Of a stretch of 64,000 nucleotides of DNA, positions 2,523 through 61,836 are shown in pieces. Source of the DNA: Aneurinibacillus soli (GTDB lineage Bacteria; Bacillota; Bacilli; Aneurinibacillales; Aneurinibacillaceae); assembly GCF_002355375.1 (NCBI RefSeq), contig NZ_AP017312.1:2063001-2127000 (forward strand). The letters run 5' to 3'. A program made the translations under genes and the position numbers. The notes under the pieces were generated by a model. It was not told the origin of the DNA and did not search any database. It saw only the letters and a list, made by a program, of their open reading frames with translations. Each line of letters starts with the position of its first letter. Positions within the stretch are counted from its first letter, which is position 1.

Positions 2523-2530
2523 TTACGAAA

Positions 2531-2580
2531 GGGGCTGTCTCAAACGCTGGAATACAGCGACTGAGGCAGCCTCTTTCTTT
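2531..2580 (+). terminator. Terminator of the small zinc-ribbon gene; also left end of composite repeat
   Basis: GGGGCTGTCTCA (2531-2542) pairs with TGAGGCAGCCTC (2562-2573), followed by a T-rich tract. The same sequence forms the degenerate left inverted terminus of the composite repeat ending near 3250. Confidence 0.7.
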
Positions 2581-2598
2581 TCTTGGGGGCAGTTTTCT

Positions 2599-2832
2599 CC
2601 AACGTGTGGTGGAGGAGCCGGGGTCGGGTGGGGCCTCGTCACTTCGGTACGCTTACGAAGAAGTTGAGACTGTCCGCTCCAGGGGCCAAGCGAACTCGCC
2701 CACAAAACATGCCCGCGATGGATTCGCATTGAAGCATTGTGGGCAAAAGCTCGTTCGCTTGGCTCCTTCCGCTGGGGAGTCGCGTACAGGCGTTCCGTTG
2801 CCCCACCCGATCCCGCCCCTAGCACAGTTTGG
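2599..2832 (-). repeat. Dispersed hairpin repeat, copy A (full length)
   Basis: Outer arms CCAA...TTGG enclose nested stems. On its own strand these include GGGATCGGGTGGGGC pairing with GCCCCACCCGACCCC, GTACGC with GCGTAC, AGCGAAC with GTTCGCT, and GCCCACAA with TTGTGGGC around a variable loop. Six other copies occur in the window. Changes between copies fall on both sides of stems, so pairing is kept while sequence drifts. Confidence 0.85.
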
Positions 2833-2959: not shown

Positions 2960-3200
2960 CCAAAACGTTGTGCGGGGAGTGGGAGAAGGGATAAGTAAGA
3001 GAGCGCCTGTACGCGCCTGCTCAGCGCAGGGAGAACAGCGAACGGGCCTTTGCCCGCAACACCTCGGTGAATCAACATCGTGGGTCCTCTTTTGCGGGCG
3101 AGTTCGCTGGGCTCCCGAAGCGGACAGTCATTGCTTCCCCGCAAGCGTACCTGAGCGAACGGTTTATCCCTTCTCCCACTCCCTCACCATCACACGTTGG
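2960..3200 (+). repeat. Dispersed hairpin repeat, copy B (full length)
   Basis: Outer stem GGAGTGGGAGAAGGGATA pairs with TATCCCTTCTCCCACTCC. The inner tip stem reads GCCCGCAA with TTGCGGGC, a compensated variant of the GCCCACAA/TTGTGGGC stem of copies A, D and G. The ends are CCAAAACGTTGTG...CACACGTTGG. Confidence 0.85.
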
Positions 3201-5249: not shown

Positions 5250-5378
5250 GAATCACGCGACTTTGGTGGTGGGAGGAAGAGAAGATGGGAGTCGTTCGCC
5301 GTTCTCCTTCCGCTAGGTAAAAAGCGTACAGACGCTCTCTTGCTTCCCTCTTCTCTCCTCCCAACAAAGTTGGGATTC
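5250..5378 (-). repeat. Dispersed hairpin repeat, copy F (short form, central arm deleted)
   Basis: Outer arms GGGAGGAAGAGAAG and CTTCCCTCTTCTCTCCTCCC enclose the conserved GTACGC/AGGAGAACGGCGAACG segment in reverse orientation, but the GCCCACAA/TTGTGGGC tip stem is missing. GAATC and GATTC mark the ends. The rest of the 5194-5593 gap (5379-5593) shows nothing else that I can identify. Confidence 0.7.
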
Positions 5379-6174: not shown

Positions 6175-6404
6175 CCAACTGTCGGCAGGAGTGGAGAAGG
6201 AAGGCGCTATGGAACGCTTTTACGCGCTACCCAGCGAAAGGGGGCAGGCATACGGGCATTTGCCCATAACTCTTCCGCGCACAAACATCTCGTCCTTTTA
6301 TGGGCGAGTATGCCTGAACCCTGGAGCGGTCAGTCTCCACTTCCCTGCAGAGCGTACCCAAGTGACAAAGCGCCTTCCTTCTCCGCTCCTCCACCACACG
6401 TTGG
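6175..6404 (+). repeat. Dispersed hairpin repeat, copy C (full length)
   Basis: Outer stem GGAGTGGAGAAGGAAGGCGCT pairs with AGCGCCTTCC...CTCC. The tip stem GCCCATAA/TTATGGGC and the middle stem GCATAC/GTATGC are double-sided variants of GCCCACAA/TTGTGGGC and GCGAAC/GTTCGC in the other copies, which is direct evidence of compensatory change. This copy fills most of the 6122-6606 gap. No gene is seen in that gap; the tail 6405-6606 only leads into the amidase gene. Confidence 0.85.
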
Positions 6405-6606
6405 ACAGCTCCATCCGCCTCTCAAGCGCATTTTTTACAGCCCTCGCCCCCAACTTTTTTCCTCCAAAACACTAATTTAGAAAAATAGTTCTAATGTCGG
6501 AAAACTATTCTCGAACTCGTGCGTCTAAGTATAATGTTCAGCTTGTCGTTCCATTGGAAGAAGAGATCGGAAGCAACACAGACAAACAAGGGAGCGAGAT
6601 AGACAG

Positions 6607-9220: not shown

Positions 9221-9235
9221 CATTACACAAAAAAA

Positions 9236-9286
9236 CGAGGCTGTCCCGAAAGTCAGAACATGACGAACGGGGTAGCCTCGTTTTTC
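9236..9286 (+). terminator. YitT gene terminator / left terminus of composite repeat copy 2
   Basis: CGAGGCTGTCCC (9236-9247) pairs with GGGGTAGCCTCG (9269-9280) followed by TTTTT. The terminator sequence doubles as the terminal inverted repeat of the element. Confidence 0.8.
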
Positions 9287-9303
9287 TTAGTGGAGGTTTT
9301 TTT

Positions 9304-9534
9304 CAAAGTGTGGAGGAGGAGCAGGATCGGGCGGGGCCTCGTCACTTCGGTACGCTCGCTACGGAGTGGAGACTGTCCGCTCCAGGTGCCAGACGAACTC
9401 GCCCACAAAACATGCCCACGATGTATGTGCATCGAAGCATTGTGGGCAAAAGCCCGTTCGTCTGCCTCCTTTCGCTGGGGAGTCGCGTACAGGCGTTCCG
9501 TTGCCCCGCCCGATCCCGCTCCTAACACACTTTG
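9304..9534 (-). repeat. Dispersed hairpin repeat, copy D (full length)
   Basis: The outer stem is almost perfect: CAAAGTGTG...GGATCGGGCGGGGC against its complement at the other end. Relative to copy A, GTGGGG/CCCCAC has become GCGGGG/CCCCGC and AGCGAAC/GTTCGCT has become ACGAAC/GTTCGT, both compensated. The loop carries a small extra stem CGATG/CATCG. Confidence 0.85.
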
Positions 9535-9661
9535 GTTAAACATCATCAAGCAATATCAAGAGGTTGAGCCTTGCTATGCAGGTGAAAAATAAGGAAGCCG
9601 TCTTTCAAAAAGTCAGTGGCTATCGAGCAAATCCATTCTGGCGGCGAGAGTTTTTTGTAAA

Positions 9662-9810
9662 CCAAAACGTTGTGCGGGGAGTGGGAGAAGGGATAAGCAA
9701 GAGAGCGCCTGTACGCGCCTGCTCCCGGAGCGGACAGTCCTAGCTTCCCCGCAAGCGTACCGAAGCGAACGGATTATCCCTTCTCCCACTCCCTCACCAC
9801 CACACGTTGT
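9662..9810 (+). repeat. Dispersed hairpin repeat, copy E (short form)
   Basis: It has the same ends and outer stem as copy B (CCAAAACGTTGTG, GGAGTGGGAGAAGGGATAA). After GCGCCTGCTC it jumps straight to CCGGAGCGGACAGTC, so about 90 bp of the central arm is missing. This looks like a clean deletion of the inner hairpin. Confidence 0.8.
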
Positions 9811-9893
9811 CGATTCTACAAAAATAGGCTACCCCGTTCGCCATGTTCTGGCTTTTAGGATAGCCTCCTTGTGTGGAAATCTAGCTAAAACTT

Positions 9894-51689: not shown

Positions 51690-51715
51690 ATATCTTTTTT
51701 AATATTTTTACTGGA

Positions 51716-51752
51716 TGTCCCTGCCACAATAGTATTGGCAGGGACATTTTTT
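51716..51752 (+). terminator. P450 operon terminator
   Basis: TGTCCCTGCC pairs with GGCAGGGACA and is followed by TTTTTT. Confidence 0.9.
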
Positions 51753-51836
51753 GTAAAACAAATAAGGAAGATATTAATAAATGGAGAAATTATTTATCTA
51801 TAGAAAAAAATTACATAATGAAAAGGAGAGTTTATT

Positions 51837-61476: not shown

Positions 61477-61542
61477 TACTATGTATTAATCTAAAAAATC
61501 ATTTCTCAACGCCAAAACTTACGCTTGATGGCTGACTGGAAC

Positions 61543-61770
61543 AAAGCTTGTCGGAAGCGGAGAAGGGAGGAGTAAGGAACGTCTTTACGCGACTACCCAG
61601 CGGAAGGGGGCAGGCGAACGGGCTTTTGCCCACAACACCTCATCGAGAAACATCCCTGCTTCCTCTTTTGTGGGCGAGTTCGCAGGCCCCCTGGAGCGGC
61701 CAGTCTCTACATCTTTGCCAAGCGTAACCAAGTGACTGGCTTCTTCCTTCTCCGCTCCGCCACCAAACTT
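61543..61770 (+). repeat. Dispersed hairpin repeat, copy G (full length)
   Basis: The outer stem CGGAAGCGGAGAAGG pairs with CCTTCTCCGCTCCG, the inner TTACGC pairs with GCGTAA (GTACGC/GCGTAC in copies A and D), and the tip is GCCCACAA/TTGTGGGC. Upstream bases CAAAACTTACGCTTGATGGC also resemble those before copy C. It lies 50 kb from the other copies, which shows the family is dispersed. The 61477-61836 gap holds nothing else. Confidence 0.85.
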
Positions 61771-61836
61771 AGTAATTCCACCAACCATAAAGCCTATCTT
61801 TTGGCATTGAATCTGCATTATGATCCCACAACTAGA

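Follow-up and report, generated by a model that had tools for sequence, protein, structure and literature searches.

A Dispersed Repeat Family Occupies Seven Sites in the Window

The window, a 64,000-nucleotide stretch of the Aneurinibacillus soli genome (NZ_AP017312.1, positions 2,063,001 to 2,127,000), contains scattered members of a repeat family. The original prediction, made from the letters alone, had listed seven copies (starting at 2599, 2960, 5250, 6175, 9304, 9662 and 61543), and we found a family member at all seven. Copies A, B, D, E and G are full length; in F the central arm is missing, and only a remnant is left of C.

Copy A (2599-2832, minus strand; core 2638-2795) is a full element of the alpha subfamily that matches the profile with 218.6 bits and was included in covariance model R1, described below. 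It lies head-to-head with copy B (2960-3200, plus strand; core 3001-3158), a full element of the beta subfamily (166.9 bits; 149.5 bits with R1). The spacer between them (2833-2959) is conserved, asymmetric and aligns with the spacers of other long-spacer units. A second unit consists of copy E (9303-9535, minus strand; core 9341-9498; 224.2 bits), a full alpha element; a spacer homologous to that of A+B (9536-9661); and copy F (9662-9815, plus strand), a beta element whose lost central arm leaves partial matches on either side of the deletion (9667-9723 and 9723-9809). The A+B spacer and unit E+F have an 87% identical stretch in common. Copies D (6175-6405, plus strand; core 6212-6366; 217.1 bits) and G (61542-61771, plus strand; core 61577-61736; 203.1 bits) are full single elements, and G has an ortholog in the sister species G006 (locus L366). 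Copy C (5250-5373, minus strand; 38.7 bits) is degenerate, with the profile match limited to ~81 bases (5293-5373).

Hairpins accompany the units. One with a T-tract (GGGGCTGTCTC..GAGGCAGCCTC; 2530-2585, plus strand) lies immediately outside copy A, and comparison of the flanks of 40 units showed that similar hairpins flank most long-spacer units. Unit E+F is bounded by outer terminator hairpins on the left (9234-9284, plus strand) and right (9820-9870, minus strand), which are inverted copies of one another (51 nt, 84%). Many long-spacer units have similar terminator hairpins, of the form GAGGCTGTC..GCAGCCTC, on their flanks. At approximately 51710-51755 (plus strand), a plain intrinsic terminator represents the unoccupied allele of a polymorphic site at which G006 carries a unit; with matching flanks, the site spans 135 bases in the window and 777 in the G006 locus (L368).

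We considered whether the elements encode protein and rejected this, as the ORFs that lie over them follow from the repeat. Separately, the region at 2090-2520 contains a TTGACA/TATAGT-like promoter, a possible structured leader with a terminator-like hairpin at its end (~2270-2325) and a small ORF with CxxC motifs that starts at ~2371. This promoter and leader region had no match in Rfam.

Alpha and Beta Elements Form Head-to-Head Units

The A. soli genome comprises 4,116,770 bases (4.12 Mb). A blastn search with copy D matched 46 places. A covariance model of the 158-position core, R1, built from 31 copies in this genome, yielded at least 150 matches with E < 1e-22. The DNA around these matches contained 190 elements and fragments, 157 of which scored at least 100 bits. 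No copy was present in 18 background stretches of 20 kb from the same genome, a 360 kb sample; this sample and the stretches around copies, not the whole sequence, were what we read. The first 0.478 Mb of the contig is without a listed copy, and copies extend to 4.067 Mb of 4.117 Mb.

In the R1 match list, every one of the 51 close pairs is head-to-head, with the minus-strand copy first, and the spacing falls into two modes. The DNA around the matches contained 67 head-to-head clusters and no tail-to-tail cluster. Among adjacent copies in named genomes, 23 of 25 were head-to-head, the other two tandem (one and one) and none tail-to-tail. In 25 long-spacer units, alpha elements are 82% identical to each other and beta elements 80%, while alpha and beta are 65% identical. 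The alpha-beta identity is no higher within one unit (64.3%) than between different units (64.7%). Thus, alpha and beta are distinct subfamilies that are inherited together as an alpha-spacer-beta unit, and A+B and E+F are two copies of one composite.

To place the units relative to genes, we used simple ORF-based gene calls. Pairs lie mostly beyond gene ends: 26 of 63 were between convergent genes and four between divergent genes, compared with 51 and 49, respectively, of 314 background intervals. Single copies in A. soli showed no consistent orientation relative to neighboring genes, and no recurrent neighboring gene family or mobility gene was found across several genomes. Genes that lie between distant elements are ordinary host genes. 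At one A. soli locus (L263; 1952836-1960810), ~2.6 kb encoding a TetR regulator and an MFS transporter lie between alpha and beta, and at another (L298; 3208110-3217516) the two are ~1 kb apart; both sites carry an ordinary pair in G006.

Covariation Supports a Conserved Branched Fold

The whole element measures ~230 bases. Its ~160-nt core forms a branched structure that stands on a long basal stem. The basal helix is interrupted by symmetric, purine-rich internal loops, such as CGGAAC facing GTGACG, and leads to a junction whose strands CCCAGCGGA and GGAGCGGACAGT are nearly invariant. The fold also has one long arm, which carries the tip stem at its end, and a short hairpin whose loop is conserved.

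To measure covariation, we aligned 31 A. soli copies by sequence only. In this alignment, 96.1% of cells at paired positions can pair, compared with 90.7% after shuffling and at most 52% when partners were slid. Doubly changed cells numbered 73, compared with 21.6 in shuffled alignments, and none of 500 shuffles reached the observed value. The covariation score was 0.253, compared with 0.158 for shuffled alignments and at most 0.087 when partners were slid by 1-3 columns. Larger alignments fitted to a model gave scores of 0.655 (shuffled, 0.190) for 78 matches from named genomes and 0.653 (shuffled, 0.187; slid partners, at most 0.118) for 123 distinct sequences, the latter with 1407 doubly changed cells compared with 468. 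Because these two alignments were model-fitted, we also aligned and folded six other families separately. The same long central arm, with the same closing motifs, emerged from each, and the sequences differed. The family thus meets the expectation for a structured RNA that covariation exceed both shuffled and shifted controls, and it is very likely that the sequence of the element is free to change while one strand keeps an RNA-like fold.

The family is absent from Rfam. A search of Rfam 15 gave no match in the window at the gathering score, and five loci searched to an E value of 5 gave only partial scores at the level of chance.

The Fold Is Kept on One Strand

In paired cells of 215 elements from two species, we counted 7877 Watson-Crick pairs, 782 G-U pairs and 119 A-C combinations (G-U to A-C, ~6:1). 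In the six other families, G-U exceeded A-C at paired sites by 238 to 20 (~12:1). Since these A-C cells would be wobbles on the opposite strand, the plus strand is the one kept pairable. Unpaired columns showed no excess of C-to-T over G-to-A (0.037 and 0.043) that could mimic the bias. The consensus fold in the genus of the window has a predicted energy of -43.7 kcal/mol on the plus strand and -7.3 on the minus strand. This gap was also clear in two Brevibacillus sets but was small or absent in four other families that were folded separately, making the wobble count the sturdier argument.

From this comparative evidence, we consider it very likely that a specific RNA-like fold is kept on the plus strand. 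We infer, without transcript data, that the strand which folds is an RNA under selection. The original prediction had reported double-sided changes in the tip stem, in the middle stem (GCGAAC/GTTCGC versus GCATAC/GTATGC) and in a further stem (GTACGC/GCGTAC versus TTACGC/GCGTAA), and all are present in the sequence. Its claim that the fold is what is kept is supported. It had left open whether the fold acts as RNA or as extruded DNA; of the two, a single strand that is read as RNA and folds is better supported than double-stranded DNA that extrudes. It had also allowed that conversion between the arms of a palindrome might explain the pattern, which is not supported, as the internal loops and the wobble pairs persist and units show no conversion of alpha and beta toward each other. 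Head-to-head pairing, the presence of at least 150 genomic copies, the strand specificity of the fold and its spread over 27 sampled genera had not been noticed.

Hosts Belong to Seven GTDB Families of Bacilli

With model R2 (E 1e-5), we detected the family in 65 of 399 Bacilli genomes, representing 27 of 145 genera and seven GTDB families; it was not seen in the other ~334 genomes of this sample. In a 398-genome sample of the phylum (E 1e-6), only the genome of the window matched. Named hosts include Aneurinibacillus tyrosinisolvens (identical in DNA to G007), six Brevibacillus species (B. panacihumi is identical to G035), two Melghirimyces species and Kroppenstedtia. In one Brevibacillaceae genus, the family is present in nearly all members sampled. 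The few single pattern matches in unrelated phyla are expected by chance, and plasmid collections, phage collections and viral contigs contained no match. We found no prior description in the literature that we searched; most subscription journals were not covered, so one cannot be excluded.

The Elements Are Mobile and Their Stems Are Kept after Insertion

Mobility was clearest in Melghirimyces profundicolus (Thermoactinomycetaceae), which has ~150 five-prime ends and single copies with sharp boundaries. These elements have terminal inverted repeats (AAGCGTTGTGATT..TTTTTCACAACGCTT). Of 31 rows, 14 had identical 4-bp flanks, compared with a mean of 3.0 in permuted data (none of 10,000 permutations was as high), with the consensus YTAR; a few elements were counted on both strands. 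No duplications of 3 or 5-8 bp were found in this species. The terminal inverted repeats and 4-bp target duplications show that the family consists of mobile, non-autonomous DNA elements. The duplications were shown only in M. profundicolus, not in the genus of the window. None of nine DDE_Tnp_1 hits in M. profundicolus had matching ends (other transposase families were outside this search), and we found no autonomous copy of the element.

Some M. profundicolus elements differ in length in steps of ~54 bp (250, 305, 360, 412 and 468 bp at L129, L130, L149, L160 and L169), as the 3′ side of the basal stem carries TAGCGAGACCGGGGAGCGCAAGCGACCCAGGCGAGACTTGTGCTCTGTGAGTGCA in tandem. In genome G399, forms of 60-137 bp (such as C3:191869-191928 and C13:45067-45126) contain little beyond the terminal repeats, as if internally deleted.

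In G006, elements occupy many of the sites at which A. soli carries them. At several other sites, G006 has a unit and A. soli only a short interval between genes, in most cases one that contains a plain terminator. At one site (L360/L379), we read the A. soli sequence as an apparent deletion scar. From these unit-free sites and the apparent scar, we conclude that both gain and loss occur.

We compared 31 orthologous copies between A. soli and G006. The rate of change was 0.078 at paired sites and 0.160 at unpaired sites, and there were 29 double changes, compared with 7.8 expected. Single changes at paired sites gave 90 G-U pairs and 17 A-C combinations. Many orthologous copies were closer to a paralog than to each other, and only seven of the 31 were clearly vertical (reciprocal best matches, closer than any paralog), implying that conversion or re-insertion among copies is common. 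Of the 26 single changes that these seven pairs show at paired sites, 22 preserved pairing as G-U and three gave A-C. Selection on copies after insertion is therefore likely, with the reservation that the numbers are small.

Gene context differed between hosts. Melghirimyces copies showed no convergent or divergent bias (9 of 23 were between divergent genes), and single Melghirimyces copies had no sense bias relative to neighboring genes. Copies in Brevibacillus and A. tyrosinisolvens lean toward the sense orientation, from small numbers and crude gene calls.

A Mobile Element That May Depend on a Folded RNA

We propose that the family is an old, non-autonomous, MITE-like lineage whose success depends on a ~160 nt folded RNA that it encodes. 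We put the probability of this reading at roughly 0.5; the transcript, the transposase and the role of the RNA are all inferred. In this model, a transposase supplied in trans would insert the element DNA, which would settle mostly beyond the ends of genes, the places where it is least harmful. The fold would be carried by transcripts that extend beyond a gene into the element, and selection would keep the shape of the RNA and not its sequence. A transcript entering a head-to-head unit from either side would meet an antisense copy and then a sense copy; thus, a pair would present the fold whatever the direction of read-through, and this local read-through hypothesis would explain the head-to-head layout. 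Turnover and conversion among paralogs would keep the copies fresh.

As for what the RNA does, the option that we favor is a local role, in which it protects read-through transcripts at their 3′ ends or processes those ends. This is the weakest step of the explanation, because a local role predicts a consistent orientation of single copies to their neighbors, which they lack. We rejected orientation as support for a cis-acting 3′-UTR role, as single copies have no sense bias in A. soli or Melghirimyces. A scan for internal promoters in unit A+B, the only unit scanned, found one where 0.7 were expected. A bolder reading, which we regard as improbable, is that the conserved folded RNA takes part in mobility itself, perhaps as a scaffold or guide for a transposase acting in trans, with head-to-head units giving one RNA for each direction.

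The most serious competitor is that the fold works as single-stranded DNA, with a transposase or recombinase recognizing the hairpins of an exposed strand, as for REP/REPIN sequences or integron attC sites, and with no function in RNA. This is possible: folded single-stranded DNA also tolerates G-T wobbles, a head-to-head doublet with a spacer is the REPIN layout (PMC3116915) and the family is mobile DNA. However, each DNA strand of a head-to-head pair carries one sense and one antisense element, so a one-strand DNA signal cannot explain a sense-strand bias in both members. The 4-bp target duplications indicate double-strand insertion and not HUH chemistry, and stems are kept after insertion, when a mere transposition signal would no longer need them. 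Moreover, Y1 transposases do not track the element; none was detected in B. panacihumi, which carries it, while G001 and G004 have Y1 transposases and few or no elements. Still further from the data is a mere palindromic repeat whose arms are held complementary by DNA repair or gene conversion, without selection on the fold. Some conversion and turnover does occur among copies, many of which are nearer to a paralog than to their ortholog. Repair of a palindrome would act on both strands alike and erase loops, but the internal loops remain unpaired, G-U exceeds A-C in every set counted and the consensus fold is confined to one strand in the genus of the window. Conversion of arms within units is rejected by the equal alpha-beta identity within and between units. 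We consider this reading very unlikely.

Two further alternatives assign the units a function of their own, and we doubt both. The units could be stand-alone genes for trans-acting small RNAs, transcribed outward from the spacer, ended by the flanking hairpins and spread by mobility of the unit. Conserved spacers, the hairpins outside many units and the strand-specific fold fit this idea. Against it, the promoter signal in unit A+B is not above chance, Melghirimyces copies diverge sharply at their ends and have no evident promoter, at least 150 diverging copies would be unusual for a trans-acting RNA and the T-tracts fit neighboring genes better than outward transcripts. Alternatively, the units could serve the host as bidirectional insulators or terminators between genes, like BIME/REP sites, their mobility now incidental. 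Consistent with this, pairs are enriched between convergent genes and depleted between divergent ones, and unoccupied sister sites have a plain terminator where the unit brings its own hairpins. However, avoidance of promoters alone would yield the same gene-context bias, and over a third of the Melghirimyces copies lie between divergent genes. Many orthologous sites show gain or loss, and a terminator has no need of a conserved 160-nt junction with invariant loop sequences.

Relation to Known Bacterial Repeats

By analogy, the family sits in concept between the bcr repeats, REPINs and MITEs derived from insertion sequences. As it has no TTTAT site, no Y1 partner and no parent element that we could find, it misses a defining feature of each. 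The bcr1-bcr18 elements of the Bacillus cereus group are dispersed, intergenic, non-coding repeats of 100-400 bp, with up to 130 copies of bcr1; bcr1-3 are described as MITE-like and bcr10 and bcr18 as conserved in secondary structure, and the elements are restricted to that group, with mobility associated with a TTTAT motif (PMC6542083, PMC3446304). The likeness to bcr repeats drawn at the outset was apt in concept, as our family is also dispersed, intergenic and non-coding. Unlike bcr, it spans several Bacilli families with one fold and unrelated stem sequences, is arranged as head-to-head pairs that combine two subfamilies, and has a target duplication of 4 bp. The flanking duplication, in M. 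profundicolus, is YTAR and not TTTAT.

REPINs are inverted doublets that replicate together with their spacer as an extragenic unit, reach hundreds of copies and give rise to singlets (PMC3116915). The inverted doublet is likewise the replicating unit here, as seen in the uniform orientation of close pairs and the joint inheritance of alpha, spacer and beta. In contrast to the 20-40 bp palindrome of a REPIN, a member of our family is ~234 bp with a branched internal fold, has no associated Y1 transposase and shows target duplications in one genome. We rejected a Y1/RAYT (PF01797) partner, which is absent from the B. panacihumi genome and has 12 hits in G001, where elements are few. The PF01797 hits in A. 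soli and G006, at 134-150 aa, resemble ordinary IS200 transposases.

With MITEs derived from DDE elements, the family has in common terminal inverted repeats, a 4-bp target duplication, the lack of coding sequence and internal-deletion forms. Of the MITE hallmarks, terminal inverted repeats and a target duplication of fixed length are present in M. profundicolus, the duplication shown in that genome only; no related autonomous insertion sequence is among the nine DDE_Tnp_1 hits in this species. The YTAR target resembles that of the IS5 group. To our knowledge, ordinary MITEs do not retain an RNA-like internal fold from genus to genus. The BOX elements of Streptococcus pneumoniae are modular repeats scattered between genes, and they have stable stems and compensatory changes, features that our family also has; they are confined to streptococci and differ in architecture.

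Dispersed repeats in bacteria are usually read as DNA parasites or binding sites. This family is mobile DNA, and comparison also gives strong evidence that it carries a specific branched RNA-like fold, which has persisted in 27 sampled genera while nearly all of the stem sequence has changed. Should the RNA be confirmed, several hosts that are open to genetic work would make it possible to study how a mobile repeat benefits from encoding a fold, and whether structured RNA aids the persistence of repeats.

Variant Arrangements

Two departures from the usual layout were seen in other hosts. In one Brevibacillaceae genome (G213:C1:1370069-1371780), four cores lie in tandem on the same strand ~520 bp apart, and the spacing is similar in two other genomes (G186 and G276). 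In Brevibacillus migulae (L123:3747-4029), the spacer of a unit has grown into a 7-bp tandem array in which GCTTTTA turns into GCTTTTC.
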